A DNA stretch of 64,000 bases, from NCBI RefSeq assembly GCF_000702065.1, contig NZ_JNKN01000004.1:43964-107963 (forward strand), read 5' to 3'. This document shows positions 30,341-47,776 of the stretch, piece by piece. Position numbers and translations under genes: made by a program. The DNA comes from Kandleria vitulina DSM 20405. GTDB taxonomy: Bacteria > Bacillota_I > Bacilli_A > Erysipelotrichales > Coprobacillaceae. Below the pieces are notes generated by a model. That model saw only the letters and a program-made list of their open reading frames with translations. It did no database searches and had not been told where the DNA came from. The stretch's first letter is position 1, and each line of letters opens with the position of its first letter.

Positions 30341-30345
30341 TTCGA

Positions 30346-30555
30346 TTAACGTAAATCCTCTACGAGATCTGATTTTGGATCATCTCCCCTGCTTTTTAAT
30401 TCAATTTTCTGATTTTCTTTCCTGTTTTCTTTGATCTTATACATACTTCTATTTTGAATGGTCAATAATGACACAAAGAAGATAATCAAAGTAACATAGA
30501 TAGAAAAAGCAAACAATGCTTCAATAAGTGTCATTCCCCTATTGTTCTTCCACAT
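30346..30555 (-). CDS. comGE: ComGE-like minor pseudopilin
   Basis: 69-residue short pseudopilin. The N-terminus MWKNNRGMTLIEALFAFSIYV carries the prepilin peptidase site (Gly before MTLIEAL) and a single hydrophobic helix; the rest is charged (ENRKENQKIELKSRGDD). Start overlaps the end of comGD. It is somewhat shorter than typical ComGE. Exported and processed by ComC outside this window. Confidence 0.7.
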   Translation of the reverse strand: MWKNNRGMTLIEALFAFSIYVTLIIFFVSLLTIQNRSMYKIKENRKENQKIELKSRGDDPKSDLVEDLR

Positions 30556-31238: not shown

Positions 31239-31252
31239 AAAAGCTTCCTCCT

Positions 31253-32251
31253 TTAAAGATCTCCAATTATATTCATAAGTGGCAATACAGCCGCAAGATA
31301 GATTGAAATCACAAATATCGCAACGAAACTATAGACTGCTGGAACAACAATTTTGACCATTTTATTGATACGTACATGAACCCATTCCAAAGTTAAATCT
31401 ATATACCCCTGCAGTGATTTTACATCTTGAGGACTCTGTAAAAAAAGCTTATACATAAGTATAAACAGTGGATCAAAATATTCGAGATTGTACATTCCTT
31501 CTTCAAACGATAGACCATTGTTCATTTTCGTATAAATTTCATAGATCATAATCTTAATATCACTGTGATTCATCTTCTCATTAAGCAATTTCATAATTGA
31601 ATGTGCATCAATATGATCCTTTAATAACTCATTAAAATACACCGCAAACTTTAATGTAAAATACTTCTGCAAAAGAACCTTGATGCCTTTGACTTTAAGA
31701 TACTTTTCAATGATCAGATACTTCTTATTCTTCAAGGCATAAAGAAGATAAAGAAACAGAAACGTTATCACAATAAATGAAACTATAAATAGAATAGGAA
31801 TCATTTTCATGATATAGATCATTACAATTAACAAGAAAGGACGTTCAACTGAAAAAGAATCAAAAAGCATTGATACTTTTGGAAACAGAATAGTTGTCGC
31901 AAAGATAGAAAAACCAATCATAAATACAATTAACATCAATGGATAAGTCATATCCTTGCGTAGCTGCTTCTTTATTTCTTTTACATGATCACAAATATCA
32001 AGACTGTTCTTAATTGCTAAAGCAAGAGTAAAACGTTCTGAGAAGAAGTCAAAGAATTCAAGAAACAGTGTAGGCAGTGGTGCTTCCATAATAATCTCTT
32101 TGACATCCATTCCTATTTTCATTTGATCTATCATTGTATCTACATAAGGAAAACGTGTGATATCCTCACAGATCAGTAAGGTTTCTTCTAGTCCATAACC
32201 CTGTTTTAATAACATATAAAAGGTTCTTAAAAAGAAATAATCTTTATCCAT
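31253..32251 (-). CDS. comGB: ComGB-like pilus membrane platform protein
   Basis: 332-residue type II secretion F-family membrane protein. Two GspF repeats each end in a hydrophobic helix pair; helices lie around residues 103-125 (YPLMLIVFMIGFSIFATTIL), 140-170 and 300-328. The repeat motif GLEETLLICEDI and NGLSFEEGMYNLEYFDPLF are typical. It anchors the ATPase and pseudopilins. Overlaps the comGA end by 8 bp. Confidence 0.87.
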   Translation of the reverse strand: MDKDYFFLRTFYMLLKQGYGLEETLLICEDITRFPYVDTMIDQMKIGMDVKEIIMEAPLPTLFLEFFDFFSERFTLALAIKNSLDICDHVKEIKKQLRKDMTYPLMLIVFMIGFSIFATTILFPKVSMLFDSFSVERPFLLIVMIYIMKMIPILFIVSFIVITFLFLYLLYALKNKKYLIIEKYLKVKGIKVLLQKYFTLKFAVYFNELLKDHIDAHSIMKLLNEKMNHSDIKIMIYEIYTKMNNGLSFEEGMYNLEYFDPLFILMYKLFLQSPQDVKSLQGYIDLTLEWVHVRINKMVKIVVPAVYSFVAIFVISIYLAAVLPLMNIIGDL

Positions 32252-33230
32252 TCAGTTCTTCCTCAAAAAGATAACGATCATAATGTTTCTTATTAACAAG
32301 CATCAAAGCATTCTCTTTGAAAGTATGATAGTTTACTTCACGATTATGAAGAAAGACATCTATTTCTTTTTTCGTTAATATCTCTGGTAAAAGAATGACC
32401 TTGTGCTGTTTTTCATCATATTTGATTTTTTGAGAAGCAATACCAATCAGAATATCCTGCAGGTCTGAAAGACTCACTTTCATATTTAATAATCGCTTAA
32501 TGACAAGCAATGCGGATGAAGCGTGGATTGTACTTAATACAAGATGTCCCGTTAATGCGCATGTCACTGCTAATGCAGCAGTCTTTTCATCACGAATTTC
32601 TCCAATCATGATAACATCAGGATCATGTCTTAATATTTGTCTTAGTGTATCAAAGTACGTAATGCCTAATGATTCATTAATTTGAATCTGTAGACAGTGA
32701 TCCTTGATCATTTCAATAGGATCTTCAAGCGTAATGACATTTTTTCCACCCATTTCAATAATACGATCAAGAAGTGCATAAAGCGTTGTCGATTTCCCGC
32801 TTCCAGTAGCTCCACTTACAAGAAATAGACCAGATTGCTTATGACATATTTCATTGAGAAATCTTGAATAATCTCCTACTTCTGATAATTCATTGATTGT
32901 TATTTTTTCATGATTATTCAATATTCTTATAACTATGCTTTCAAAATCAATGCCTGGAAGATAAGAAACACGAAGAAAGTAGATATGATCACTAATATAA
33001 TAATTAAAAGAACCTGTCTGAGGCATCAGACGATAGTTTACGTTGATAAAGGACTTATATTTTATATAATTCATGATCCTTTCTCCTAATTGTTTATCAT
33101 AAGTCTGATAGTGCCTTAACTGTCCATAAATACGATAATAAATCGCTAAGTCTTTCTTTAATTTCATATGAATATCTGTTGCTTCATTTTTCAATGCCTT
33201 ATAGATCAGAGTTTCAAATAATTCATCCAT
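32244..33230 (-). CDS. comGA: ComGA-like competence pilus ATPase
   Basis: 328-residue GspE/PilB-type traffic ATPase that powers pseudopilus assembly. The N-terminal part has EATDIHMKLKKDLAIYYRIYGQL. Walker A GATGSGKST is near residue 142, the Asp box LEDPIE near 168 and Walker B DPDVIMIGEIRDEKTA near 203, with a His box GHLVLSTIHAS. The tetracysteine zinc motif of PilB is absent, as in ComGA. First gene of the comG operon; its upstream region has a -10 but no clear -35, consistent with activator-dependent competence control (inference). Confidence 0.92.
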   Translation of the reverse strand: MDELFETLIYKALKNEATDIHMKLKKDLAIYYRIYGQLRHYQTYDKQLGERIMNYIKYKSFINVNYRLMPQTGSFNYYISDHIYFLRVSYLPGIDFESIVIRILNNHEKITINELSEVGDYSRFLNEICHKQSGLFLVSGATGSGKSTTLYALLDRIIEMGGKNVITLEDPIEMIKDHCLQIQINESLGITYFDTLRQILRHDPDVIMIGEIRDEKTAALAVTCALTGHLVLSTIHASSALLVIKRLLNMKVSLSDLQDILIGIASQKIKYDEKQHKVILLPEILTKKEIDVFLHNREVNYHTFKENALMLVNKKHYDRYLFEEELNG

Positions 33231-33246
33231 AAAATCATCTCCTATT

Positions 33247-33252
33247 ATTATA
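33247..33252 (-). promoter_or_regulatory. Possible -10 of the comG operon
   Basis: TATAAT on the - strand (rc of 33247-33252), 17 bp upstream of the comGA start, and an AGGAGATG site follows. The 17-bp upstream position is A-rich with no recognisable -35, so any promoter here probably needs an activator. Confidence 0.35.
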
Positions 33253-33287
33253 TTCTTGATAATGGATTTTTTTTCTCATAAAAAATA

Positions 33288-33317
33288 AAAACAATTCAGA
33301 TTTTTTTGAATTGTTTT
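33288..33317 (-). terminator. Terminator-like hairpin upstream of comGA
   Basis: AAAACAATTCA (33288-33298) pairs perfectly with TGAATTGTTTT (33307-33317). The T-rich tract follows on the - strand, so it would stop transcription entering comGA from the island side. It probably marks the last chromosomal sequence before the island. Confidence 0.6.
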
Positions 33318-33330
33318 ATCAGTAGATAGT

Positions 33331-33354
33331 AATGTAATTCTCTAAATAAAAATG
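33331..33354 (+). repeat. Left copy of the imperfect direct repeat flanking the island
   Basis: AATGTAATTCTC followed by TAAATAAAAATG; the right copy at 42780-42803 has the same first 12 bases and then AAAATAAAAAGG. The two agree at about 21 of 23 positions allowing one gap. It lies exactly where the ABC-3C effector frame loses its start. Confidence 0.5.
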
Positions 33355-34188
33355 GATATAACCCCTTTTCATTTGGAGCTATAGCAAGTAATACAATAGA
33401 TAAGATATGTAGAGGAACTGATGAATTCCCAAAAAAGCATGCTCAAGCTATAGTTAAAAACTTAAGATCCCCTCTAGCTTTTGCAGACTTGTTGAATGAG
33501 CATATTAATGATGATCGTTTAGACGATTTAGTAGCACAGTTGAATATAATAGAAAATAAACTAATAGATCCCATGCTTGCATTTAATTATCTACAAGATT
33601 GGTTCATTTCATTTCTAAAGAATCGTGCTCTTATTAATTCTCAAAATCAAACCCTCGTAAATATTGTAAAAATACGTGAAGTCTCTGAGTATAATGGAAT
33701 GATTTATGTAGATGGAAAAGAATTAAAAATTTCTAAAGATTTATCTAGCCAAGAGGTTGATACTGATATGCTTCCATATAAACATGAACTATTAAGAGCG
33801 TACGGAGATGCAGAAAATACAACTGTCAAAACTGAAAGTGAACTTAATAATATACCTGAAATGTATTTGATGGATTACAAAGAGCAAAGACATAATTTTT
33901 TAAATGCTGAATATGTACGAAGATCTTTCAGAGAAATATTTGTTGATGCTGATGCAAACTTCGATATTTTGAAGAATGAGCTTATTAAAAACCTTAATAA
34001 AGTAAGAGGACCTTTTGAAAATGGATACGATAAGGAGTGCAAAGTTTTAGATAGAGCAACATTAGCACCGCTTGATAAATCACTATTATTTAAAAAAAAC
34101 AAATCTTATTGGTTATGACGAACGCTTAGGTCTCTGTCATATGTTAGTTAACGATGGAAAGTTAAAATGGGTAGAAGAACATGAGTAA
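33333..34188 (+). pseudogene. ABC-three-component (ABC-3C) effector-like gene, no start codon and frameshifted
   Basis: The reading frame opens after a stop at 33330-33332 and reads GYNPFSFGAIASNTIDKI, PLAFADLLNEHI and LAFNYLQDWFISFLKNRA, resembling the C-terminal region of ABC-3C defence effectors. It has no ATG or ribosome site in frame; the first allowed start is TTG 33489. The frame stops at 34116-34118, but dropping one A from the A8 tract at 34092-34099 continues it as GYDERLGLCHMLVNDGKLKW, ending at 34188. That end overlaps the next gene's ATG (34181), as expected in an intact operon. It is therefore a decayed gene, truncated at its left end and broken by one base. Confidence 0.6.
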
Positions 34189-34621
34189 CGTACTTTTTAA
34201 TATGCCTTTTGAATATGCAATGCGACTTTTAATGATATTAGGAGCAGATTATCAATCTGAATTCAGTTCATCAAGACTAGCTTCACTGGATTTTATGATT
34301 ACATATTCCAAGTATTTTAAAATAAATGAAATAAATTTGCACCCGGATAGTCAATACAAGTTTAGTGAGTATGCTGCAAGATTACAAATTCTCTCTTCAG
34401 CAATTAATTATCTCGTTGTAAATAACTTAATTAATGTTCAAGATTCACAAGAAGGTTTTCTATATAAAATTAATGAAAGAGGATTAACAATATATTTCCA
34501 AGTTGAATCCGAATACTATGATACCTATGCTCTTATTGCATCGGATACTATTGAAAAAATGAAACGCTTTACTAATCAATTACTTGTCGAACACATCAGA
34601 GAGCGAAGATACGGAAGGTAA
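34181..34621 (+). CDS. ABC-3C middle component-like protein
   Basis: 146-residue protein resembling the middle component of ABC-three-component systems, a winged-helix adaptor thought to link the ATPase and effector. Evidence is the FEYAMRLLMILGA start, the LDFMITYSKYFKINEINLHPD segment, a wing-like helix region (QILSSAINYLVVNNLINVQD) and GFLYKINERGLTIYFQVES. It appears intact. It overlaps the end of the broken effector by 8 bp and is followed by the truncated ATPase after 2 bp. Without intact partners it is probably non-functional. Family call is from memory of the motif pattern. Confidence 0.6.
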   Translation: MSNVLFNMPFEYAMRLLMILGADYQSEFSSSRLASLDFMITYSKYFKINEINLHPDSQYKFSEYAARLQILSSAINYLVVNNLINVQDSQEGFLYKINERGLTIYFQVESEYYDTYALIASDTIEKMKRFTNQLLVEHIRERRYGR

Positions 34622-34623
34622 CA

Positions 34624-35040
34624 ATGATGAGTTTTTATTTTAAAAAATTAACTATTTCAGGTATAGGAAAGCCTGAGCCTGTTATTGAATTTAATGAAAA
34701 TTTGAATATCATCCATGGTCGATCAAATACAGGTAAAACTAGAATGTTAAAATGCCTAGATTATGTAATGGAATCTAAGGACTTTCCTCTAGATGAAAGA
34801 TTGGGATATAACACTATAACAGTTGATGTTTGTACATCTACCAATGAAATAATTACATTTATGCGCATCGACACTGATAACCTTATAAATCATAGAAATG
34901 AAGGACAAGTCATTATTGTTGAAAATACTAAAAATTTACCAACTTTAAATTACGATCAAGAAGGTATAAATATTCTCTCTTTTACACATGACAAAGAAAA
35001 AGGTCGTTATGGATTACTCCCAGACGTATTTGAAGATTAA
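34624..35040 (+). pseudogene. Truncated ABC-3C-type ATPase
   Basis: 138 residues that contain only the N-terminal half of an SMC/AAA-like ATPase: YFKKLTISGIGKPEP, FNENLNIIHGRSNTGKTRML with Walker A, then a strand-rich part. Signature, Walker B and the coiled coil expected for such a protein of several hundred residues are missing; the frame stops just before the long terminator at 35049. I read it as cut off by the rearrangement that brought in the BrxL operon. A short active form is unlikely. Confidence 0.6.
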
Positions 35041-35048
35041 ATTTGCAA

Positions 35049-35094
35049 AAAAAGCTCTCCAAACACTGAATCGTCAGTGCTTAGAGAGCTTTTT
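35049..35094. terminator. Two-part bidirectional terminator
   Basis: Outer stem AAAAAGCTCTC (35049-35059) / GAGAGCTTTTT (35084-35094) is perfect. An inner stem AAACACTGA / TCAGTGCTT has one mismatch around ATCG. T-tracts occur on both strands. It ends the - strand BrxL operon seven bases before the GIY-YIG stop codon. Confidence 0.85.
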
Positions 35095-35100
35095 ATATTA

Positions 35101-35796
35101 TTATTTTCTTACATATCCACGTGATTCTTCTTCAAGACGTGTTCTTAAATTATCTAAAATTTCCCCATTATATGAGAAACACGCTGGGCCCTGTACTGGA
35201 GAATTAATACCTTTTAAACTTCTTAACTCCTGTGCTAAAGCAGACAGTGAAGTTGTTTTGCCTTTCCACTCGATATGACGATCATCAACAACCTCAGGTG
35301 TTATTGAAGGGTCATCGATATAGACAACCTTTTCTCCTGGTTTAATATTTACAAGACTAAATCTAAATGGAGCACGCTTTGATTCTTTTTTAGCTTCTTC
35401 TGCTTTTTCTTCATCTTGAATCTCAGTAGCTGTTGGATTTACCAAATGTAATCTATCCTCAGTACCACTTATTTCAGCTATAGCTTGTAAAATAAGATAT
35501 GCCTTCTCTTTTGTCATTTCGTAGAACTCTTTAGTACGTTTCTTACCATCGAAAGTTTCTATGGTTCTTAGATCAGGATCCAGAGTATCTATTAACATAT
35601 GAAGTTTTTTATCTGTTAATTTATGCGTAACTTCATATACGGCGTATGCTCTAAATGCATATGGAACAGAAGCTGAACGATTTAATTGTTTTAAACGCTG
35701 ATTAACATTCTTAGCGTATCCAATCTTCACATACTCAGGGAAAGATGGATTTGTAAGAATATAGATATAACCAACACTCTCTTCTTTATTTGTCAT
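35101..35796 (-). CDS. GIY-YIG nuclease with a C-terminal defence-associated domain
   Basis: 231 residues. The N-terminal GIY-YIG (T5orf172-like) domain has YIYILTNPSFPEYVKIGYAK with both signature tripeptides, the catalytic-Arg segment NQRLKQLN and a likely metal Glu in TKEFYEM. After an acidic linker (~125-140) a second domain reads FSLVNIKPGEKVVYIDDPSI, VVDDRHIEWKGKTTSLSALAQ and VQGPACFSYNGEIL, a layout I associate with the RAMA-like domain found with modification-dependent nucleases. It is the last gene of the operon, 21 bp after the 71-aa gene. Cleavage of phage or modified DNA is plausible; it could instead be regulatory. Confidence 0.75.
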   Translation of the reverse strand: MTNKEESVGYIYILTNPSFPEYVKIGYAKNVNQRLKQLNRSASVPYAFRAYAVYEVTHKLTDKKLHMLIDTLDPDLRTIETFDGKKRTKEFYEMTKEKAYLILQAIAEISGTEDRLHLVNPTATEIQDEEKAEEAKKESKRAPFRFSLVNIKPGEKVVYIDDPSITPEVVDDRHIEWKGKTTSLSALAQELRSLKGINSPVQGPACFSYNGEILDNLRTRLEEESRGYVRK

Positions 35797-35817
35797 TAAT
35801 ATTCTCCAATACTCATA

Positions 35818-36033
35818 TTAATATACATCATTAACGTACATAACATTATCAGTCCAAAGCTCGCACTGACTGATTACAGTTTCTAAAGCATCCTTTGTTT
35901 CTTCAGGGGGATAGTCATATTTCTTTAGTAATCGTTTAATCATTCGTCGCATTTGAGCTCTAGCTGACTTTTTCTTTTGCCAATCTATAGTTTGATTCTT
36001 TCTTAATGTTTCCGTAAACTTTTGTTCATTCAT
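35818..36033 (-). CDS. 71-aa protein resembling the C-terminus of type I restriction HsdR
   Basis: A free-standing copy of the C-terminal helical segment (DUF3387 / EcoR124-type) of HsdR. The pattern TIDWQKKKSARAQMRRMIKR, KYDYPPEETKDALETVISQ and CELWTDN is closely similar to that tail. In HsdR the segment contacts the methyltransferase core; no nuclease or helicase is encoded here. It has its own ATG (36033) one base after the brxL stop and lies in a tight operon, so it seems to be a real gene, not a random remnant. No HsdM or HsdS is in the window. Function as an adaptor is inference. Confidence 0.7.
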   Translation of the reverse strand: MNEQKFTETLRKNQTIDWQKKKSARAQMRRMIKRLLKKYDYPPEETKDALETVISQCELWTDNVMYVNDVY

Positions 36034-36034
36034 A

Positions 36035-38077
36035 TTAAATATTCATAGCAATTTTTGCAGCATCAATTGGTGAAGAATAGAACATAGGCTGTACTGATTT
36101 ACGAATATTCTCAGGTATATTTTTCATATCAATTACAGCTGATCTAGGAAGCAATAGTTTCGTAGCGCCAGCATTAGCACATGTTCTAAAGATTTCCTCG
36201 AGATCCTTCAATTCATCAAGTGTACCCGATAATTTAATATCTCCGACAATCACAAGAGATTCAGTTACAGATATTCTTATTGCTGCAGAGCACAATCCTA
36301 CAAATTCAGCTACTGACACCTGTGAACTTAACCCTTTATTTTGTAAATCAGCATAATATAAAAGATAATCTTTATTACTATATGATTCCCAATCAGCAAC
36401 TTTTTTAGAATTATTCTGGAAGTACATCCATGCTGATTCAATAGATTCTCGAACAGCTTTAGTTGTAACACCTTGTTTTTCAAATCTACCACTACCACGT
36501 ATAGCTTTGTTTTCTAATCTATATACACACATTTCACCCGATGATTGACTTCTTCCCATTGTAAACACATGACCAAATGGAAGTGTTGCATTAGTTATTA
36601 GATCACCAGATTTTTGCTCTGGAACTGAAACAACATATTCTTTATGTTCATCATCATAATAACCTAAGTTAACATCAGCAAATTCATTTCCAGCAATTAG
36701 CTTAAGCTGTTCTTTTACTCGTCTTCTTCCTTCAATTGCATAATCAAGAAGAATCTTTGTTTCTTCTTTGTTAATAATCCCATTAGGGAACAACACTTTA
36801 CATAATCCTGAAAATGTTTTTCTAACCGCATCTTCATCACGTTTATTGAAGTCTCTGTTTAGATGATAATAATTATCTAGTAATGCAGTAAAATCTTGTT
36901 TTCGCATTTCTTTACAGAACTCTGATAAGCAGTCAGTTATTAAGCCATAATGCTTTGTGATAATATCCGATCGCATTTTTGGTACTTCCCATCCAGGCAA
37001 GTAATAATGCATACGGTCAAAGAATGCTGTATCCTTATTGAACTCTGGAGGAAATGGTTCAAATAAATTACTTCTTTTAAGTAAATTCGAAACAGAATCA
37101 TTAATATTTCCTACGTATACCATAGAAGCATCTGCATTTATCTCCTCTTTCCCACGCGCGAATGATCCTGAAGCCATGTAATCTTTTAAAATCTGAATTG
37201 CATTCTTATCCTTAAAATGCATACCTGCAACTTCATCAAAAGCAACAGTATCCCAATGTCCAACTAATCCAACTCTATGATTTGACAAGTTATAAAACAG
37301 GTTAGCCGTTGTAGTTTGACCACCGGACATAAGGATTGAGTATGGTGAAATTTCTTTGTAAACATGCGATTTGCCTGTCCCTCTAGGTCCTAATTCACAG
37401 AAATTATAATTACGTTCAACAAGTGGAACTAACCTTTCTATGAAATGAAACTTTTGTTTATTATCTAACTGATCAGGTTCATATCCTGACGATCTAAGAA
37501 TTAGATCCATCCATTCTTGATAGTTAAAATATTTTCGTTTTGAAATTAAATCATCTAAATTTAACGATGGCATCTGTATTGGTTTTACACCTACAAGTTT
37601 AAACGGAGATTCACGCCTCTTTCGTTTACCTTCAAAATCTTCACCTTGTGGTACATATGCAATTTTTGCCATACACCACATACCACCAGTCAGAATTTTT
37701 GAATACTGTGTTACATAATCTGATGATAACTCTAAAGGAGAAAATTCTAAATTAGAGAATCTTGAATAGTATTTATCCACTGTTTCATCTAACCATCCAG
37801 TTAATTTGTCAATAACAGTATATTGTCCTCTTTCCCTAATTCTAGATTTAATTTTTTCTGATTCATCAGGTCTAACATAATTCTCAGTAAGAATTGTCTT
37901 AATCTTTTCAATTCCTGCTGCAATAACATCTTCATCATCTGATGAACAATACATTCCTAATAAATATTCAAGTACAAATGTAGGTACATTAGCACCTCTT
38001 TTAAGAAGACTCGTAAGATCCTTTCTTACAACTCTTCCTGGAAAATTTTGTATTAACGCTCTATCTAAATTATCCAT
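36035..38077 (-). CDS. BrxL-type AAA+/Lon-like protein
   Basis: 680 residues, the usual length of BREX BrxL. The N-terminal helical domain (~1-190) ends in MPSLNLDDLISKRKYF. The AAA+ core has Walker A ELGPRGTGKSH near residue 234, Walker B-like TVAFDEVAGM near 275, VYVGNIND near 325 and an arginine-rich DRMHYYLPGWEVP segment. The C-terminal Lon-like domain has VSVAEFVGLCSA and GDIKLSGTL. In an ungapped comparison the Lon Ser is kept but the catalytic Lys position is Glu, so peptidase activity is doubtful. BrxL is a DNA-binding oligomer in BREX, but other BREX genes are absent here. Second gene of the island operon, 12 bp after the membrane protein. Confidence 0.88.
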   Translation of the reverse strand: MDNLDRALIQNFPGRVVRKDLTSLLKRGANVPTFVLEYLLGMYCSSDDEDVIAAGIEKIKTILTENYVRPDESEKIKSRIRERGQYTVIDKLTGWLDETVDKYYSRFSNLEFSPLELSSDYVTQYSKILTGGMWCMAKIAYVPQGEDFEGKRKRRESPFKLVGVKPIQMPSLNLDDLISKRKYFNYQEWMDLILRSSGYEPDQLDNKQKFHFIERLVPLVERNYNFCELGPRGTGKSHVYKEISPYSILMSGGQTTTANLFYNLSNHRVGLVGHWDTVAFDEVAGMHFKDKNAIQILKDYMASGSFARGKEEINADASMVYVGNINDSVSNLLKRSNLFEPFPPEFNKDTAFFDRMHYYLPGWEVPKMRSDIITKHYGLITDCLSEFCKEMRKQDFTALLDNYYHLNRDFNKRDEDAVRKTFSGLCKVLFPNGIINKEETKILLDYAIEGRRRVKEQLKLIAGNEFADVNLGYYDDEHKEYVVSVPEQKSGDLITNATLPFGHVFTMGRSQSSGEMCVYRLENKAIRGSGRFEKQGVTTKAVRESIESAWMYFQNNSKKVADWESYSNKDYLLYYADLQNKGLSSQVSVAEFVGLCSAAIRISVTESLVIVGDIKLSGTLDELKDLEEIFRTCANAGATKLLLPRSAVIDMKNIPENIRKSVQPMFYSSPIDAAKIAMNI

Positions 38078-38089
38078 TATTATCTCCTG

Positions 38090-41000
38090 TTAAAAATCAA
38101 AATCTGATGTAAATACAATATCGATTTTACACTTCTTTTCTTGTAGCACTTTACCATTATTCTTGTTTATAAGAACAATCTTGTAATCTTTTGTTTTATC
38201 GAATGTTGTCCCTGCTTTAAGTGTAAGTGTTACTTTACGATTAGCATCATTTGTATTAATTTCTTTGGTATCACTCATTGTAGAACCAAACTCATCTTTG
38301 ATTGCTATTGTATAAATACAGTCATCTAAACTTGTATCAGTAATTGAATAATTAATCGTAAAGATACTATTAGTAATGAGTTTATGATCTTCTTCAATTT
38401 CTACTTTCTTCTTGTCATGATTATCATTCAACACTTCTGAAGTATTACTCATATCTTCTTTTTCTATGATTTTTGTCTGACGCATTGCTAAGATAGCCTG
38501 TATTTCTTCATCAGATAATGGGCCAAGTCCATTATCTTTAAATATGTTATCTGACTTATTTGTTTTTTCTGCATATAACTCTCTTAAACGCTGTATCTCT
38601 TTATTGATAGAATCCAAATAGAACTGAGAATCATTATATCCATGTAAAGCACTAAAGAGATCCTGTACTTTTAAGTAATCCTGAACAGTCCTTGATTTCT
38701 TATACATGTCTCTTGCTGTCTGATATTTCTTTTCTTTTCTATCTTTTATTGCATTCATAGAATCAATATGTTTTTTACATTGATTCATATACTTATAAGC
38801 ATCTTTATATCCATCTAATTCTTTAAATGCGTAATATAATTTGTCATATATTTCTAATGTATTTGCATTAGTGTACTGATTAACGAGATATTCATATAAA
38901 CCTATACGTTTATCATTGTTGTCTCTTAATACATTAATTTTCTTTCGAAGATCATTTACATTTGTATAAGATGATATTGACTCACAAACTATTAACGCTT
39001 CTTCAAACTTATGGGCATTAGCCAAATCAACTGCATGATTATATTCTTTAGAAATCATGCTCTTCTTCTTTTGTTCGTGAGCTACTATATATTGATATAT
39101 GTCTTTATAACCACTTAATTCTTTAAGTAACAACAGATTATCATCCAGTTCCTTGATTGATACTGAATCTTCATAACGTTTTAACGCAACCTCATAAAGC
39201 TCCTTAAGATCATGTACACCTACAAGATTATATTTACGAAGCTTATTATTAACAGCTTTCTTGATATTCTCTTGATGTGCTTTTACCGACGCATAACCTT
39301 CAGCATTTAAAAATTCATCATATGCTAAGTTTAACGTATATAGAGTATTTCTTAATTCATGTTTTAAAGCGGATTCATAATAACTTTTACTTTGGTCAGC
39401 ATTACTAAGCCCTTTTGAAGAATCTTTAATATGAAAATTATACTTAGTATCCTCTTTTTCAGAATCATATATTGACCATTTTCCATCAGTGCATGAATTT
39501 GCAACATCTAAATAGTCAGTCTGATGATTAAAGAAATCATTATAAATTTTTTCAGGATCTCCATCAATTGAACTTGTAAGTTCCATTGCAGTTTTATGTT
39601 TTTTAGTTCTCAAATACTTATATACTTCATTATTACAAATATTTGCGTTTTTCTGTGTATCTAAATCCGAATTTTCATATGCGTCAACGTTATCGTACAA
39701 TTCCAATAATTCTTTATGGTTTTCATAAAACAAAAGAAAGGAATCATAATATTCTTTGATATGATCATAATATTTCATCTCTTCTCTATAATGATATATT
39801 GCTTTGATTATTTGATTATCCCCCACAAAACCATCATAGAAATCAACTTTCGGCTCAATTGAATACTCTAACTGAGATTCACTCAAGTTTGCTTTGAATT
39901 CTTCAGCCTCATTCATGATTGTGTGCGATACATTACCACGAATACAAAATCTTTTCGCTAATGTATTTTCATCATATCGAGATAAAAGATCATCTACACT
40001 TTCTACACCTTCATTACTCATCTCTTCAAACAATTTACTTGAAACACTCTTTAACTGTTCTAATGAAGTATCTTCTAAGATTTCGTCAATCTTATTGTCT
40101 TTGATAAATTGATATTCATAATCAAGGTCATCTTTTGCATTTTCCTTTGCAGTTGCAAGATATTTCTGTAGATCCTCTTTATCATATGTAAGAATATCAA
40201 AATATGACTCTCTGTCTCTCCTAACCACTTCTTTAACAGCTGGTTCTTTAGCTTTTATTTGACTTTTTTCTTTATCAGCTTCAAAGTTAAATGGCGAATT
40301 CTTTATATACCAATACTCACCAGTAATATTAGTTGCTAATTTTAAGTATTCATCAAGATGATCTTTAAAATCCAGATATATCTCCTGCATATTATTATTT
40401 GGATCATATGCGAGTATATGGGCATTTAACTTGAATTCCTCACTATGTAAATAATCAGTCACTTCGTCATTTACCTGTATAACGCGTTTTTTATCTTCGT
40501 CATTCAGTAAACTGAACTTCACGTCATCTTCATAGAATTCAACTTCGTTAATATGTTCCTTATAGTAATCAGAAAATACCTTATAGAAATCATTTAATGC
40601 ATTTCCTTTTTCAATAAATTCCCTATATCCATAAATAGCTTCAATCATCCCATTATCATCAAAGAATCCATTTTCATAATCAACATTATAATCCATGAAA
40701 TATTTCATGTTTGCATTCTTTAATTGATGAATTATAGAATTGTAAAATTCGAATAATTTCTTTGCATCTGAAAAACTAATATTACAAGAACGAGCCAAGT
40801 CATTCTCATTTTCATATTTCTTTAAATCATATAATGTGTAAACATTATTTTTAGAAAGTCTTGAAGTCACCTTAGCATCAGGAATAAATGGCTTAAGATC
40901 CATTCCCTTTAATGCTATACTAATCTTATCATCTTTAATGATATTAAAGATATCTAATACTGAATCTTCGCCTTGTAATTCTAAATCAGTTAACTGATTA

Positions 41001-41797
41001 GCCATGTCTGTTTTAGCATTTCTAAACTCTTGACAGATAGACGGTTTGACTCTTTCAAATTCATCTTCAAATATTGTATCTTTCCTTTCTAAGATTTTAT
41101 GTAATGTTTCGATACCATCATTTAAAGGTACAAATAAAAGTATAAATAATATTAAGGGTGCAAAACTAACTTTGCTATAGGTAGTTAAAAAGATGTACGT
41201 AATGATGTACGTAATAAAGAAAATAAATATTAAATCTAGTAGCAACATAAACCATTTAAAACTACGGTCTTCTTTATTTGCATGAATATCATTTCTTATT
41301 TTTTTTCTATTCTCACCAAATATCATTCTCTTAATAAAAAAGAAATCTACTATACCAAACACAATATGCCATCCCATCGTCAACCCTAAAAAAGAAGATA
41401 ATCCATTTTTGCTTTGAATGTTTGAAATATGTATTGAGTTATCATTACATATAGTAATCACCTTAGCAATCCATGCTTCCGTAATAAAAGATATTACCAT
41501 AAAATATGACATCTTATTCAATGTTGATATACAAATTTTTTCTCGCTTTTCTTTATCTATAGAAAATAATTTAGAGAATTGGTCAACTGCAACACAAACA
41601 GGTAAATAACTTACAATTACAGTTACCATAAGTTCACTAGAAACATGTAAATTTCGATAGGCATTACCATAATCTAATAAAACTGGATTGATTCGATGAT
41701 AGCATCCATCGAAAATTGCATACAAAATATAGACATCAATAGTCAAAATAATTAAATTTGCAAACTTACTTTTCATATACTTTCCCATATCTTCCAT
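38090..41797 (-). CDS. Large six-helix membrane protein with duplicated cytoplasmic module, defence-operon first gene
   Basis: About 1235 residues; not recognised. Six hydrophobic helices lie in the first ~230 residues. Then come two copies of a ~210-residue module (about 290-500 and 575-785 in this numbering). Each has a helix-hairpin-helix-like start (TLYDLKKYENENDLARSCNI; SVDDLLSRYDENTLAKRFCI), then VDYENGFFDDNGMIEAIYGY versus VDFYDGFVGDNQIIKAIYHY, and a Trp-containing end. A third partial helical unit and TPR-like repeats with LSGYKD, LDGYKD and LHGYND follow. The last ~100 residues are beta-rich and end in SDFDF. I chose ATG 41797; ATG 41776 is an alternative, and the GTG at 41839 lies upstream of the likely -10. 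Confidence 0.7.
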   Translation of the reverse strand: MEDMGKYMKSKFANLIILTIDVYILYAIFDGCYHRINPVLLDYGNAYRNLHVSSELMVTVIVSYLPVCVAVDQFSKLFSIDKEKREKICISTLNKMSYFMVISFITEAWIAKVITICNDNSIHISNIQSKNGLSSFLGLTMGWHIVFGIVDFFFIKRMIFGENRKKIRNDIHANKEDRSFKWFMLLLDLIFIFFITYIITYIFLTTYSKVSFAPLILFILLFVPLNDGIETLHKILERKDTIFEDEFERVKPSICQEFRNAKTDMANQLTDLELQGEDSVLDIFNIIKDDKISIALKGMDLKPFIPDAKVTSRLSKNNVYTLYDLKKYENENDLARSCNISFSDAKKLFEFYNSIIHQLKNANMKYFMDYNVDYENGFFDDNGMIEAIYGYREFIEKGNALNDFYKVFSDYYKEHINEVEFYEDDVKFSLLNDEDKKRVIQVNDEVTDYLHSEEFKLNAHILAYDPNNNMQEIYLDFKDHLDEYLKLATNITGEYWYIKNSPFNFEADKEKSQIKAKEPAVKEVVRRDRESYFDILTYDKEDLQKYLATAKENAKDDLDYEYQFIKDNKIDEILEDTSLEQLKSVSSKLFEEMSNEGVESVDDLLSRYDENTLAKRFCIRGNVSHTIMNEAEEFKANLSESQLEYSIEPKVDFYDGFVGDNQIIKAIYHYREEMKYYDHIKEYYDSFLLFYENHKELLELYDNVDAYENSDLDTQKNANICNNEVYKYLRTKKHKTAMELTSSIDGDPEKIYNDFFNHQTDYLDVANSCTDGKWSIYDSEKEDTKYNFHIKDSSKGLSNADQSKSYYESALKHELRNTLYTLNLAYDEFLNAEGYASVKAHQENIKKAVNNKLRKYNLVGVHDLKELYEVALKRYEDSVSIKELDDNLLLLKELSGYKDIYQYIVAHEQKKKSMISKEYNHAVDLANAHKFEEALIVCESISSYTNVNDLRKKINVLRDNNDKRIGLYEYLVNQYTNANTLEIYDKLYYAFKELDGYKDAYKYMNQCKKHIDSMNAIKDRKEKKYQTARDMYKKSRTVQDYLKVQDLFSALHGYNDSQFYLDSINKEIQRLRELYAEKTNKSDNIFKDNGLGPLSDEEIQAILAMRQTKIIEKEDMSNTSEVLNDNHDKKKVEIEEDHKLITNSIFTINYSITDTSLDDCIYTIAIKDEFGSTMSDTKEINTNDANRKVTLTLKAGTTFDKTKDYKIVLINKNNGKVLQEKKCKIDIVFTSDFDF

Positions 41798-41812
41798 AAA
41801 AATTCTTGTATT

Positions 41813-41820
41813 ATTATACA
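41813..41820 (-). promoter_or_regulatory. Extended -10 promoter of the BrxL operon
   Basis: TGTATAAT on the - strand (TATAAT is rc of 41813-41818). No clear -35. Transcription from it would begin near 41806, leaving a very short leader before ATG 41797 or ~30 nt before ATG 41776. Confidence 0.5.
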
Positions 41821-41882
41821 ATATTTGGTACCGAAACACTATGCATATCTATTTCAAGATACAAAAAAAGAACAGATATCAG

Positions 41883-41929
41883 GGAACCAACCATCATCTC
41901 ATTGCACAAAGGAACCAACAAAGTGCAAT
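41883..41929. repeat. Paired GGAACCAAC motifs and ATTGCAC inverted repeat upstream of the BrxL operon
   Basis: GGAACCAAC occurs at 41883-41891 and 41911-41919, 28 bp apart. ATTGCAC (41901-41907) and GTGCAAT (41923-41929) form a 7-bp inverted repeat enclosing the second copy. The position about 65-115 bp upstream of the promoter suits an operator, but no regulator gene is next to it. Confidence 0.35.
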
Positions 41930-42060
41930 ATAAGAGCGTCGCTGAGTCGGATAATCACTCAACAATCTTTATTATAAATATAAATTTAGTAAATATCTAT
42001 TTTATGGATTATATAACAATAAATAAATTTCTTTAGGTTCATTTAAGTTTAAAAATAAAA

Positions 42061-42138
42061 ACACAGCATATGGGAGTTTGCTGCGTTAAATAATGAGACT
42101 TATCTATGTTAATTGGGATATGGGAGTTGATAAGTCTC
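42061..42138. ncRNA. Noncoding stretch with two hairpins sharing a loop sequence
   Basis: Hairpin A: ACACAGCA (42061-42068) / TGCTGCGT (42079-42086), one mismatch, loop TATGGGAGTT. Hairpin B: a perfect 10-bp stem GAGACTTATC (42095-42104) / GATAAGTCTC (42129-42138) with a 24-nt loop. The 11-mer ATATGGGAGTT occurs in both loops, exactly 50 bp apart. AATTGGGA also recurs at 42111 and 42159. The surrounding 41840-42215 region has no supported coding sequence. An RNA role or a regulatory/recombination site are both possible; transcription is not shown. Confidence 0.35.
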
Positions 42139-42215
42139 TAGAATGGTGGATCCCTGGGAATTGGGAACGTTAAAATTATAACTCTTTTTAATCTGCAAAT
42201 GTAAGTATAAAGCTT

Positions 42216-42398
42216 TTATTTTGTATATACCTTATATGACACTGGTACTACTCTAAACTCATCATCTGTTAACGGTGTTTTGTAAATCTTCAATTTTGCT
42301 GTCTTCTTTTCTTTATTAAGATCGTACACACGATAAATATAATATTCTGAATCTGTTCTCTTTGAAGTTTCTAATTCATTAGATGATAAGTAAAAACC
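42216..42398 (-). pseudogene. C-terminal remnant of a DUF3883-domain protein
   Basis: The - strand reads RIDGFYLSSNELETSK, YYIYRVYDLNKEK and a tail ending VPVSYKVYTK at a stop (42216-42218). This matches the end of DUF3883 domains (FYLSxNE, YYIYRVY), which are common in restriction and defence helicases. There is no start, and the upstream part is replaced by IS256-like sequence at about 42390-42425. It is a fragment of a lost defence gene. Confidence 0.55.
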
Positions 42399-42779
42399 AT
42401 CGATACGAAGTATGGTCCAATCACAATCAAGATGCCAAGAGACAGACTTGGACTTTTTGCGTCATCGCTGATTCCTGCATATGTGAGACGTACAGAAGGT
42501 ACGGAAAGATCCGTCATCGACCTTTTTGACCTGGGACTCACAAACAGTGAGATCACTGAGGCAGTTGATAGAATGTTTGGCGCCAAGGTCTCAAAGGGTA
42601 CTGTCTCTAACATCACAAACAGAATCATATCCAACATCGATTCATTCAAGAATCGTACTATGGCAAGCGAATATGCCGTAATCTATATTGATGCGACTAT
42701 GATGCCTCTTAGACGTGATACGGTGCAGAAGGAAGCAGTGCATATCGCATTAGGAATTCGTACCGATGGAACCAAGGAA
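42390..42779 (+). pseudogene. IS256-family (mutator-type) transposase fragment
   Basis: About 130 codons of a ~390-residue transposase: KTIDTKYGPITIKMPRDR, LFDLGLTNSEITEAVDRMFG, VSKGTVSNITNRI, then VIYIDATMMPLRRD with one catalytic Asp and VHIALGIRTDGTKE. The N-terminal third and everything after GTKE, including the other acidic residues, are missing. Homology stops at 42778, one base before the right flanking repeat. An open frame from ATG 42432 runs on to 42839 but reads chromosomal sequence at its end. Inactive. Confidence 0.75.
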
Positions 42780-42803
42780 AATGTAATTCTCAAAATAAAA
42801 AGG
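42780..42803 (+). repeat. Right copy of the imperfect direct repeat flanking the island
   Basis: AATGTAATTCTC then AAAATAAAAAGG, matching 33331-33354. It begins where transposase homology ends and runs into the T-tract of the gloB-like terminator, so it is the point where chromosomal sequence resumes. Confidence 0.5.
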
Positions 42804-42824
42804 AATGCCATCAATAGCCATTCC
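42796..42824 (-). terminator. Terminator of the gloB-like gene
   Basis: On the - strand GGAATG pairs with CATTCC (about 42802-42824) around an 11-nt loop, followed by CTTTTTATTTT. The stem is short, so strength is uncertain. Confidence 0.5.
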
Positions 42825-43440
42825 AATCTACGTTTTTAATATAATAATTATGTTCACGTTCATAAGATAACGTTGTCTTTTCTCCATGACCAGGATAAAT
42901 ATCTGCATCAAATGGAAGATCTCTTATTCTCCTGATTGTCTTCTTTAAAAAGCCCAAGGAAGATGTTGGAAAGTCATGGCGGCCTACACAGCCCTTAAAC
43001 AATGCATCACCGGTAAATAACGCATTTTCACTTTTAATATAGAATGCTTCATCTCCAAATGTATGACCAGAAGCATCAATAACATCTATTTCAAATGAAC
43101 CCAAACTCATATGAGGTGTCGTTGTCGTTAAAGGTGCCTCAGGTACAAACGGAGAAGTCATCATATCTGAAAGATTCAATTCTGAATTATGTATGATGAT
43201 CTTATTACGAGCTGATGTGTAGACAGGCACATTATAACGTTCTACTAATGGATCAATTCCTGCAATATGATCAAAATGTCCATGTGTAATAAGAATACCA
43301 ATAAAAGTAAGTTGAGAGTTGTCAATAATCTCTGAAATAAGATCCACCTGTTCCCCTGGATCAATAACAATCAATTCTTTATCATTGGATACAATGTACG
43401 TATTGACATCCATAATACCATTTTGAAGTGTTTGAATCAT
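42811..43440 (-). CDS. MBL-fold hydrolase (glyoxalase II-like)
   Basis: 209-residue metallo-beta-lactamase-fold hydrolase of the YqgX/GloB-like group. The zinc motif THGHFDHIAG is near residue 58, further ligands lie in DASGHTFGDEAFY and FTGDALFKGCVGRHD, and the C-terminal PGHGEKTTL completes the set. The substrate could be a bacillithiol or other thioester; Bacillus YqgX acts in methylglyoxal detoxification. In Bacillus yqgX lies near comG, which suggests the island split an ancestral gloB-comG neighbourhood (inference). A GGGTAAAG stretch precedes the ATG. Confidence 0.9.
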   Translation of the reverse strand: MIQTLQNGIMDVNTYIVSNDKELIVIDPGEQVDLISEIIDNSQLTFIGILITHGHFDHIAGIDPLVERYNVPVYTSARNKIIIHNSELNLSDMMTSPFVPEAPLTTTTPHMSLGSFEIDVIDASGHTFGDEAFYIKSENALFTGDALFKGCVGRHDFPTSSLGFLKKTIRRIRDLPFDADIYPGHGEKTTLSYEREHNYYIKNVDWNGY

Positions 43441-43454
43441 TTTGCTTTACCCTA

Positions 43455-43480
43455 TAAAAAAATAAGCCATTAGGCTTATT
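43455..43480 (-). terminator. Terminator of rpmG
   Basis: AATAAGCC (43461-43468) and GGCTTATT (43473-43480) form a perfect 8-bp stem with a 4-nt loop, with a - strand T6 run after it. It overlaps the rpmG stop. Confidence 0.75.
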
Positions 43481-43625
43481 TCTTTTCCTTGTGAACTGTT
43501 TTCTTCTGACATCTTGGACAATACTTTTTGATTTCCTGTCTTTCAGGATGTTCTCTCTTATTCTTAGTACCAATATAGTTTTCTTCACCACATACTGTAC
43601 ATTTATAAGTTACGTTTTCTCTCAT
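43476..43625 (-). CDS. rpmG: 50S ribosomal protein L33
   Basis: 49 residues ([20 protein letters not shown] at the N-terminus). It carries four Cys in the pattern Cys-x-x-Cys near residues 9 and 12 and CPRC near 36-39, so it is the zinc-binding type. The [16 protein letters not shown] segment is diagnostic. AGGAGG lies 6 nt upstream of the ATG at 43625. It has its own terminator. Many Bacillota hold two L33 genes of zinc and zinc-free type; only this one is visible. Confidence 0.95.
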
Positions 43626-43794
43626 TTTAACACCTCCTGTTAAACTTGCTTTTATATACTAACATATCACTTAAGAAATTGCTAGTCCTTTTTACGTGTT
43701 TTTATCTTAATGAAGACATAATACACATGCATATTATAAATTGAAGATAGCCGTTAAACAAGAGTAAATTACATGTTCAAGTAAATATTTTTAA

Positions 43795-43824
43795 AAAGAA
43801 AGAAGACCTTTAAAAAGGTCTTCT
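43795..43824 (-). terminator. Terminator of the PBP gene
   Basis: AGAAGACCTTT (43801-43811) and AAAGGTCTTCT (43814-43824) form a perfect 11-bp stem. A - strand T-tract (TTTCTTTTT) follows. Confidence 0.75.
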
Positions 43825-45886
43825 ATTTCTTATAGCCATATTTCTCAAAATACTGTGATACCGCATATTTCCATACCGATGGTGCAGAGTTGTTATTCTT
43901 CTGTCTTTCTACCATAACTGTACATACAATCTGTGGATTATCAACACTTGAATAACCAATCAACAAGTGGTTTGGATAATCGGTATTGCCTGAATGTGTA
44001 TAGTCTTCGGCAGTACCTGTCTTAGCCGCAACCTGATATGGGAAACCTTTGAATTGACCAGATACAGTACCATAATCAATGACAGCTTTCATACCAGCTC
44101 TAATCTGTTTAAAGGCTGTCTTTTGATCACTCATGTCATCGACAATCTTCTTCTGATATGTATCCAAGGTAACAATGTTGCCATCGTCATCATAAGTAAA
44201 TGAGCTCTTATATAGATGAGGTGTAATTTTAACCCCCATATTGGCTAATGTAGTAGCATAAGTTGCTAACTGCATATTTGTATAGGTATCATACTGCCCG
44301 ATTGAGAAATCAAGCAGATTACCAGCATTCTGAGCATTACCACGATATCCTAATGCTTCACTATCGACATCGATGCCAGTCTTGACACCAAGTCCTAATT
44401 CACCAGCACCATTACGTAATTTTGTAAAGGCATCCTTATTGATCTTCAATGGCTTATTGTATTGATACTTGCCACCAGCTAATTTAATGATGACCTGCAT
44501 CATCCAGATATTTGATGAATAAGCCAATGCTGAAACTTCATTAAGATGACCCAATCCTTTTTTCCAAGAATACTTTGTCTTAGTACCAGCAATCTTTAAA
44601 CCTTGTGGTGTATCATCTTCATAATGGTTAGCTTTAATAACTTTATTCTTGAAGGCAGTATAAATAACTGCAGACTTCATTGTAGAACCAATACGATAAG
44701 CACTTAAATAGTTACCAGCTGAATAGTCAGTAATCTTTCCTGTCTTCTGATCAATTTCTCTACCAACCATGGCGATAATATCACCCGTTGTTGGATCTTC
44801 TAGAATACAGTAGATATGATCATTAAATGGTTCACTACGATGAGCAAGAAGTTCTTTATCAATAAAATCAGAAATCTTTTTCTGTAGATCCCAATCAATT
44901 GTCAGCTGAATATTGGCACCGTTGGTACCTTCCTGACTTAGTTTGACTGTAGGTGTTCCATTGGAGTCATAAGATATAGAATATGTTGAGCTGACCCCCT
45001 TAAGAATATCTTCATATTGACCTTCAATACCTGAAGTCCCTACTCTTGCATCATTGGTATAATCAAGGGCAATCAGTTCATCCTTTTTAGTAGAAGGAAG
45101 CCCCTGTTTACGTGTTGTAAGATTACCAAGAGTTCTCTTTAAAATCTTATCTGTTGTCTTACGTTCCCAATCACTTGTTACCTGAATTCCTCTTAACAGA
45201 TCACTGTGTTCTCCAATGATACTTGCTTCCTTGATAGAAATATCAGATAGCACAACTGAAGACCCAGAAGTACAAGACTTAATCGCATAGAATATCTTAT
45301 AGTACTTGATATCATCATCAGATAATTTCTTCTTTAGAATATCATCTGTAATATAATGCAGCTGCAAACGAGTTAAGTCACTCTTTTCACTATCTAATCC
45401 TTTGATAGCATTGAGTTCTTTCTTTGGAATCAATGATGTAACATATTTCTCATCTTTCATTATAAGAAAGTCTTTCTTCTGTCTTGTAGTGACTTCAGAA
45501 ATATCTACATTCACATTTTTCATCAAGAACTTTGTCATTGCATCAATCTCTTCATCCTTGATGCCTTTAACAGCATAATAAGTCGCACAAATGACAGTCT
45601 TGTTTTGTACAAGCGGCTTATAATTACGATCCATTATTTCACCACGCTGGGCATCTACCTGAAAAGTATTGGTATTGTACTGCGTCAGTTTAGCATCATA
45701 ATAGTCCTTTTGCCTGATCTGCGTAGAAAAAAGCTTCAAACTGAAGATAAGACCAATGACAATAATGACAATCATCATAATCTTTAAACGCTTCTGCATC
45801 AGCTGTTCTAGATTTTTTCGTTTTTCTAATTTAATTTCACGTTGTCCATGAAAATGAATGGGTGTTTTATTAAACAAACCTACCAC
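43823..45886 (-). CDS. Class B penicillin-binding protein (PBP2-like transpeptidase)
   Basis: 687-residue high-molecular-weight class B transpeptidase that cross-links peptidoglycan. A single N-terminal membrane helix (~33-52: LKIMMIVIIVIGLIFSLKLF) is followed by the dimerisation domain with AQRGEIMDRNYKPL. The transpeptidase domain has the active-site Ser in GSTMKSAV near residue 405, SSN in AYSSNIWMM near 465 and AAKTGTAED near 625. No PASTA repeats are present. Partner RodA- or FtsW-like genes are not in the window. Own promoter and terminator. Confidence 0.92.
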   Translation of the reverse strand: MVGLFNKTPIHFHGQREIKLEKRKNLEQLMQKRLKIMMIVIIVIGLIFSLKLFSTQIRQKDYYDAKLTQYNTNTFQVDAQRGEIMDRNYKPLVQNKTVICATYYAVKGIKDEEIDAMTKFLMKNVNVDISEVTTRQKKDFLIMKDEKYVTSLIPKKELNAIKGLDSEKSDLTRLQLHYITDDILKKKLSDDDIKYYKIFYAIKSCTSGSSVVLSDISIKEASIIGEHSDLLRGIQVTSDWERKTTDKILKRTLGNLTTRKQGLPSTKKDELIALDYTNDARVGTSGIEGQYEDILKGVSSTYSISYDSNGTPTVKLSQEGTNGANIQLTIDWDLQKKISDFIDKELLAHRSEPFNDHIYCILEDPTTGDIIAMVGREIDQKTGKITDYSAGNYLSAYRIGSTMKSAVIYTAFKNKVIKANHYEDDTPQGLKIAGTKTKYSWKKGLGHLNEVSALAYSSNIWMMQVIIKLAGGKYQYNKPLKINKDAFTKLRNGAGELGLGVKTGIDVDSEALGYRGNAQNAGNLLDFSIGQYDTYTNMQLATYATTLANMGVKITPHLYKSSFTYDDDGNIVTLDTYQKKIVDDMSDQKTAFKQIRAGMKAVIDYGTVSGQFKGFPYQVAAKTGTAEDYTHSGNTDYPNHLLIGYSSVDNPQIVCTVMVERQKNNNSAPSVWKYAVSQYFEKYGYKK

Positions 45887-45899
45887 CTCGCTCTTATCT

Positions 45900-45927
45900 A
45901 TTATACCTAAGTTTGGTATGAAATCAA
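45900..45927 (-). promoter_or_regulatory. Promoter of the PBP gene
   Basis: TTGATT (rc of 45922-45927) and TATAAT (rc of 45900-45905), spaced by 16 bp on the - strand, followed by a GAGGTGGT ribosome site. Confidence 0.65.
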
Positions 45928-45943
45928 TCTTTAAGAAAAGACA

Positions 45944-45969
45944 AAAGACAGAGTCAATACTCTGTCTTT
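45944..45969 (-). terminator. Terminator of lepA
   Basis: AAAGACAGAGT (45944-45954) and ACTCTGTCTTT (45959-45969) form a perfect 11-bp stem with a CAAT loop just before the lepA stop. The - strand downstream has only a short TTTTG run. Confidence 0.8.
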
Positions 45970-45970
45970 A

Positions 45971-47776
45971 TTAATCATCATCAACAGAAAGAATAGCCAT
46001 GAACGCTTCCTGAGGAATTTCAACACTTCCTACAGCCTTCATACGTTTCTTTCCTTCCTTCTGTTTTTCAAGAAGTTTCTTCTTACGAGAAATATCTCCA
46101 CCGTAGCATTTAGCTAATACGTTCTTTCTGACAGCTTTAATATTAGTTCTAGCGATAATCTTTCCATTAAATGCTGCCTGAACAGGAATTTCAAACTGCT
46201 GTCTTGGAATAATTTCTTTTAGTTTATTACAGATGATCTTTCCTCGATCATAAGCAAAATCTTTATGAACAATGGTACTTAAAGCATCTACGACTTCACC
46301 ATTAAGCATAATATCCATCTTCTGCAGACGACTTGTACGATATCCTTCTAATTCATAATCAAATGAAGCATATCCCTTTGTACATGATTTCAATTTATCA
46401 AAGAAATCATAAACAATTTCAGATAAAGGAATAGAATAAATAACATTTCTTCTTGTATCATCAAGATATTCGATATTTACATATTCCCCTCGTTTATTTT
46501 GACAAAGCTCCATGATCGGACCAATAAACTCTTCTGGTGTCATAATAGAGGCTTTGACATAAGGTTCTTCTATATGATGAAGTTCAGTTGGATCAGGCAT
46601 ATCTGCTGGGTTATCAATGGCGACCATAGTCCCATCAGTACGATAAGTGTGATAAATAACAGATGGTGCAGTGGCAATAAGATCAAGATTAAATTCACGT
46701 TCTAATCTTTCCTCGATAACATCCATATGTAATAGACCTAAGAAACCACATCTAAAGCCAAATCCTAAGGCCTGTGATGTTTCTGGTTCAAAGACAAGTG
46801 AAGAGTCGCTTAAAACAATCTTTTCCAATGCTTCTCTTAAATCACCATAACGGGCATTATCTACTGGATAAAGACCGCAGTAAACCATTGGATTCATGCG
46901 CTTATAACCTGGCAATGGATCAGCAGATTGATTTTCTACTGTAGTGATTGTATCACCAACGTGAACATCCTTGATTGTCTTAATGCTTGCAGCAATCCAT
47001 CCAACTTCACCCGTAACAAGTTCATCCTGTTTCACTTCTTTTGGCGTATTGACACCAAGTTCAGTTACTTCATAAGTAGCACCAGTAGCCATAAACTGAA
47101 TGTGATCACCAACTTTGATCTTACCTTCCTTGACACAGACAATAATGATTACACCACGATATGAATCATAATATGAATCAAAGATCAAAGCCTGCGTAGG
47201 ATTGTCAATTGAACCTGTAGGTGCAGGTACATTCTTGACGATATCTTCTAAGACATCTTTAACATTAAGACCAGTCTTAGCAGAGATTCTAGGTGCATCT
47301 TCAGCAGGTAATCCAATATCATCTTCAATTTCCTTGATGACACGATCTGGATCAGCACTAGGTAAATCAATTTTATTGATAACTGGAAGAATTTCAAGAT
47401 CATTATCTAGTGCCAGATAGACATTCGCTAAAGTCTGAGCTTCAACACCCTGTGCTGCATCTACAACTAAAATGGCACCTTCACAAGCAGCTAAGCTTCG
47501 TGAGACTTCATAAGAAAAATCGACATGACCCGGTGTATCAATCAAATGAAATAAATATGTTTTCCCATCATCGGCCTTATAGCGCAACTGTACAGCATTT
47601 AGCTTGATGGTAATGCCTCTTTCTCTTTCAAGTTCCATATTGTCTAACAGCTGATCTTTCATTTCACGATCACTTACAGTATCCGTTAACTGAAGAATAC
47701 GATCAGCTAATGTACTCTTTCCATGATCGATATGGGCAATAATGGAAAAGTTTCTAATCAATGATTGATCTATCAT
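45971..47776 (-). CDS. lepA: Elongation factor 4 (LepA) GTPase
   Basis: 601 residues, normal length. This translational GTPase back-translocates or helps ribosome biogenesis under stress. G1 is [10 protein letters not shown] near residue 14, switch I has [13 protein letters not shown]3 is [12 protein letters not shown]4 is [10 protein letters not shown]. Domains II, III, V follow, then the LepA-specific C-terminal domain ending with [19 protein letters not shown]. It follows ssb by 12 bp, so the two probably share a transcript. Confidence 0.97.

Follow-up and report, generated by a model that had tools for sequence, protein, structure and literature searches.

Type I bacteriophage exclusion (BREX) systems carry a type A PglZ (PDB 9zn5, 9nv3) whose immunoglobulin-like (Ig-like) C-terminal domain ends in an acidic-aromatic tail and whose gene lies directly before brxL. 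This domain has been described as an Ig-like beta-sandwich of unproven function (PMC12839542, PMC12205998, PMC13326643). BrxL is specific to BREX types 1 and 4; the PglZ of type 2 ends in a winged helix-turn-helix, and that of type 3 lacks an end domain (PMC12839542). BrxL rings dimerise via their C-terminal domains, and other factors, perhaps BREX components, have been suggested to load BrxL onto DNA (PMC10164562). Both the delivery of BrxL to phage DNA and the role of the PglZ end domain remain open in the BREX literature. Here we analyzed a window of 64,000 nucleotides (the whole stretch examined) from Kandleria vitulina DSM 20405, contig NZ_JNKN01000004.1, in which brxL is preceded by the gene of a predicted membrane protein, P0001. 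Unlike type A PglZ, P0001 has no phosphatase/nuclease domain and carries predicted membrane helices and repeats instead, yet it shares with PglZ the end domain, the tail and the position before brxL.

Sequence comparison identifies the last ~110 residues of P0001 as the C-terminal Ig-like domain found in BREX PglZ. A sequence-only reading of the window had noted a beta-rich C-terminus ending in SDFDF and suggested comparing it with the ends of PglZ-type proteins; this comparison gave a match, and the region is modelled as a beta-sandwich (predicted local distance difference test, pLDDT, ~70-87). A phmmer search against the PDB retrieved PglZ 9zn5_B with an E-value of 0.0066 when full-length P0001 was the query and of 2.5e-4 when only its end was used. 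We also built a profile from 74 PglZ ends, leaving P0001 out; it gave P0001 a score of 31.4 bits (E=1e-6, Z=100,000) and aligned residues 1125-1235, down to the final residue, and the P0001 end outscored all 2000 shuffles of itself. In alignment A1 the domain is 20-36% identical to other ends, stays in frame across 111 codons and retains the conserved Ile, Ser, Tyr and two Phe residues. The PglZ phosphatase domain is missing from P0001 according to Pfam, nor does any other part of P0001 match the PglZ body.

As the sequence-only reading had stated, P0001 is the first gene of a BrxL operon, 12 nt from the start of brxL, which has its own ribosome-binding site within the gap. The BrxL of this operon is ordinary and intact, sharing about 48% identity with those of known structure (PDB 8emc, 8emh), with the N-terminal, AAA+ and Lon-like domains present (PF20442, PF13337, PF05362) and an intact Walker A motif, GPRGTGKSH. 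It differs from known systems in its genomic company. No PglZ was found in the host genome (99.93% complete) using PF08665, a profile that does detect the PglZ of relatives, and no BrxC was found there with the Emergencia BrxC as the query, in a search run without a positive control. No PglX, BrxA or BrxB was identified beside the operon, a genome-wide search for them not having been made. BrxL is paired here with P0001, without detectable PglZ or BrxC, and the pair stands alone. The host BrxL also belongs to a separate clade, supported at 100/100 and placed on a long stem, together with the BrxLs of loci L029, L030 and L031, that of Collinsella and the truncated one of L022, which adjoins a BrxC fragment (this tree predates the discovery of locus L173, described below).

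We surveyed 80 BrxL loci from genome_contigs, plus others. In nearly all loci read, PglZ directly precedes brxL and ends in DFDF, EFDF, DFGF or a similar tail; an acidic-aromatic tail also occurs in E. coli (DDFF), Acinetobacter, Methylomonas and one haloarchaeon. Three non-PglZ proteins carry the end domain, all of them directly before brxL: P0001 and the proteins of L029 and L173. The L029 protein (Emergencia) has 924 aa, two membrane helices according to hydropathy, an LRR_5 solenoid and a PglZ end with the tail SEFDF; its locus also encodes BrxA, BrxC, PglX and a full PglZ of its own. The L173 protein (genome G1207), which is truncated at its N-terminus where the contig stops, combines LRR_5 with a PglZ end and the tail AMKF; no PglZ was detected in its genome by a search that was positive in 4/4 other genomes. 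Both are BspA-type leucine-rich-repeat (LRR) proteins of which PADLOC PglZ profiles cover just the last ~115 residues. They share with P0001 the end domain and the place before a related BrxL (65% and 60% identical to the host BrxL for L029 and L173, respectively), but their LRR_5 bodies are unlike that of P0001. A further candidate, L159, was rejected because it is a normal PglZ, separated from brxL by a single inserted gene, and a tree of the end domain was too short to decide whether P0001 groups with L029.

The tail of the end domain also appears to vary together with its BrxL partner. In canonical pairs BrxL has the motif VRKDL. Six loci (L117, L118, L119, L147, L171 and L172) have PglZ tails reading FKMF, FKPII, FRPF or FKVF, and BrxLs reading VV[PK]KGAT; in L173 the tail AMKF accompanies VCKGLT. 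Using 81 canonical pairs as the reference, 220 BrxL columns are at least 95% conserved, of which 5 are changed in the FKMF-like group and 13 in L173; R18 and D20 are the only columns that the two sets share (hypergeometric test, P=0.03). With a cut of at least 98%, 3 and 2 of 139 columns are changed and overlap in 2 (P=3e-4), while a 90% cut adds three further columns to the overlap (P=0.02), although these values come from two lineages, a chosen threshold and columns that are not independent. This pattern is suggestive of a co-variation of the tail with BrxL R18/D20. Given that the C-terminal domains mediate the pairing of BrxL rings, the N-terminal faces point outward, and the VRKDL motif should lie there.

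The body of P0001 has no match in Pfam, NCBIfam or PADLOC, and a PHROG search returned a single non-significant match (E=0.21). The sequence-only reading had proposed about six helices in the first ~230 residues, an internal duplication and repeated L-x-GY-x-D units, all of which were recovered. Hydropathy gives six segments, at residues 12-33, 52-74, 99-117, 137-155, 185-203 and 207-232. Residues 284-502 and 561-779 are 27% identical over 219 aa (BLASTP, E=5e-17) and have in common the motif VD[YF]xxGFxxDNxxIxAIYxYRE and a Trp near the end, and three L-x-GY-x-D units were located at residues ~894-899, 994-999 and 1051-1056. The helix-hairpin-helix (HhH)-like start attributed to the repeats is plausible but not proven: the first ~65 residues of a repeat are modelled as an HhH-like bundle with a pLDDT of ~70-92 and lie nearest to the N-terminal HhH domains of RAD51C and RadA in Foldseek (prob 0.66-0.96, with E>1). 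The repeats may bind DNA or protein, as the sequence-only reading proposed, although their HhH-like units do not have the GxG hairpins usually seen in DNA-binding HhH. Beyond the HhH part, a repeat model computed from two rows was of low quality, and fold searches gave no significant match. A repeat-profile search across 316 genomes produced weak matches only, one to a 904-aa coiled-coil-like protein and the other overlapping an AraC-like regulator gene, and both were set aside. An alternative GTG start upstream would extend the P0001 open reading frame to position 41839.

Table 1. Features of the P0001-brxL region (positions in the window; all on the minus strand)
Feature	Position	Strand	Basis
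T5orf172/GIY-YIG-like protein, downstream of brxL	35101..35796	-	PF10544 6.5e-12; PDLC05043 320.8 bits (PADLOC candidate PDC-S57)
brxL, 680 aa, intact	36035..38077	-	TIGR02653 868.4 bits (cut-off 628); PDLC02506 906 bits
BrxL R18-K19-D20 of VRKDL, proposed tail contact	38018..38026	-	co-variation with partner tail
AGGAG ribosome-binding site of brxL	38083..38088	-	sequence, within 12-nt gap
P0001, putative membrane adaptor gene	38090..41797	-	open reading frame, 1235 aa from ATG
PglZ-type Ig-like C-terminal domain, residues 1125-1235	38093..38425	-	PDB PglZ match, profile, alignment A1
Acidic-aromatic tail SDFDF	38093..38107	-	common to PglZs of most BrxL loci
TPR-like stretch, three L-x-GY-x-D units, residues ~889-1060	38618..39133	-	sequence; no family match
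P0001 repeat 2, residues 561-779	39461..40117	-	similarity to repeat 1
P0001 repeat 1, residues 284-502	40292..40948	-	similarity to repeat 2; HhH-like start ~289-355
~6 predicted transmembrane segments, residues ~12-232	41102..41764	-	hydropathy
Promoter-like site TAGATA-17-TATAAT before operon	41971..41999	-	consensus match only, 10/12

We propose that P0001 is probably a membrane-anchored sensor or adaptor to which BrxL docks by way of a tail borrowed from PglZ. The idea of a membrane-anchored sensor or scaffold linking BrxL to the membrane, already put forward in the sequence-only reading, is partly supported and has become the best-supported interpretation because the C-terminal domain is the one borne by the PglZ encoded immediately ahead of BrxL, and because the same graft recurs in other BrxL loci. 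According to this model, the six membrane helices would hold P0001 in the envelope, while the duplicated HhH-like modules and the TPR-like stretch would form a cytoplasmic arm for sensing or scaffolding. The PglZ-type end would act as a handle, tying BrxL to PglZ in BREX and to a membrane protein here. The arm might sense infection, or the trigger might simply be the entry of phage DNA at the membrane; BrxL, once positioned or released, would assemble on the entering DNA and keep it from being replicated. Physical docking, the cytoplasmic orientation, sensing and defence itself are what we infer from this arrangement. Zorya and other membrane-sensor defence systems also couple a membrane sensor to a DNA-acting effector. 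They may offer an analogy for how P0001-BrxL works, with no membership being claimed, and PADLOC returned no ZorA/ZorB-like match.

Several observations weigh against this docking model, in addition to the limits of the co-variation given above. The membrane helices are a prediction from hydropathy, and the body of P0001 has no relative in genome_contigs, viral contigs, plasmids, phages or 97 relatives. When the end domain was joined to BrxL by stop-codon read-through and modelled with AlphaFold2 (37 rows, many of them naturally in-frame PglZ-BrxL pairs), the domain folded well but the tail and linker had a pLDDT below 50, so that the model showed no interface and was uninformative on docking; the construct imposed a 5-residue link between the domain and BrxL. 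The type-B PglZs of L137 and L138 have no DFDF tail, yet their BrxL partners keep VRKDL; this counter-example led us to reject a strict tail-to-VRKDL rule. Finally, in published map-docking the Ig-like domain of PglZ is given a part in contacts between PglZ molecules (PMC13326643). Such docked dimers, together with the tail-less type-B PglZs and the invader recognition proposed for this fast-evolving sandwich (PMC12839542), would suit an end domain that binds invader molecules or DNA, or self-dimerises, rather than binding BrxL, its place before brxL being an inherited operon order. We regard this as rather unlikely given that BrxL is the next gene for all three separate non-PglZ carriers, that few parts of the domain are as well conserved as the tail and that loss of the tail accompanies the change of two near-invariant BrxL residues in two lineages. 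The restriction of BrxL to types 1 and 4, with a different end or none on the PglZs of types 2 and 3, also argues for a link between the domain and BrxL.

Another explanation is a deletion scar, in which a decaying type I BREX operon lost its central part and an accidental fusion joined the 3' end of pglZ to the gene of an unrelated membrane protein, leaving a functionless domain. The island has indeed decayed, as indicated by the broken Lamassu system that adjoins it; neither of the other BREX genes sought (PglZ, BrxC) was detected, and L022, a relative within the same BrxL clade, is truncated beside its BrxC fragment. A functionless remnant is nevertheless difficult to reconcile with a domain that kept its frame and its conserved residues at such low identity, with an intact brxL that has a ribosome-binding site of its own, and with two more non-PglZ carriers, one of which lies within a BREX locus having a full PglZ; we therefore consider the scar improbable. 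It is more doubtful still, to the point of being very improbable, that P0001 and BrxL serve a host process, for instance as a membrane-tethered replication or segregation factor. The body of P0001 is of an unrecognised family and the island is flanked by the housekeeping genes lepA and pbp, which would be compatible with such a role. On the other hand, the lack of any match in the 97 relatives is a pattern as seen for defence genes, BrxL is a known restriction factor (PMC10164562), and the pair lies next to a Lamassu remnant and a candidate defence gene.

Downstream of brxL, the T5orf172/GIY-YIG-like protein may be a separate defence gene; its membership in the operon is uncertain, and no relative of it was found among the open reading frames of the other loci analyzed. 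The Lamassu/ABC-3C remains occupy positions 33489-35040 on the plus strand and comprise the C-terminal part of LmuA (208 aa), LmuC, and an LmuB cut down to the first ~110 of ~605 residues. Across the region, promoter-like sites such as the one before the operon are fewer than in shuffles of the same region, and no Rfam element was found within 30000-46000.

The survey also yielded observations on other BrxL and PglZ loci. Genome G022 has a second kind of BrxL pair on two contigs (L020 5992-9784 and L021 2682-6474), in which each brxL copy is directly preceded by a protein of 585 or 581 aa without a Pfam match or a PglZ end. In L163 (6352-9951, plus strand), a BrxL-like open reading frame of 1199 aa follows PglZ; it is far above the usual length and is a possible fusion. 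PglZ copies with EEFNFFG[NE] ends occur in genome G896 (L160 483-3149, and L161) with no brxL directly downstream. A free-standing 91-aa PglZ end piece without a tail (profile E=8e-14) precedes a DUF262-like gene in L162 (8166-8441, plus strand). The C-terminal end of a 1493-aa YhaN/SMC-like ATPase in L131 (3037-7518, plus strand) weakly matches the PglZ end domain (E=9.7e-7 with the A1 profile and 0.007 with the PglZ-only profile). Several short open reading frames between pglX and pglZ (L147 1599-3660, L118 3423-4804 and L171 2-1495) end much like PglX (DWDSFETSWDFKKHPLI and variants) and look like spare target-recognition cassettes that would switch PglX specificity.

Both parts of P0001-BrxL belong to known families, and we did not find their combination (a membrane body, a PglZ end and a stand-alone BrxL) described in the open-access papers searched, nor any mention there of membrane or LRR proteins carrying a PglZ end domain. 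We give even chances to a broader proposal, in which the PglZ C-terminal domain would be a transferable BrxL-docking module that has moved onto varied, often membrane-bound, sensors, building BrxL-based defence that dispenses with the methylation-based self/non-self test of BREX; the same DFDF-VRKDL contact would then recruit BrxL to the PglZ complex in BREX itself. Naturally occurring proteins that have retained just this domain together with BrxL direct attention to one contact that can be tested, that of the tail with BrxL R18/D20. They also suggest that PglZ and BrxC may be dispensable for BrxL function, a membrane sensor taking the place of methylation.
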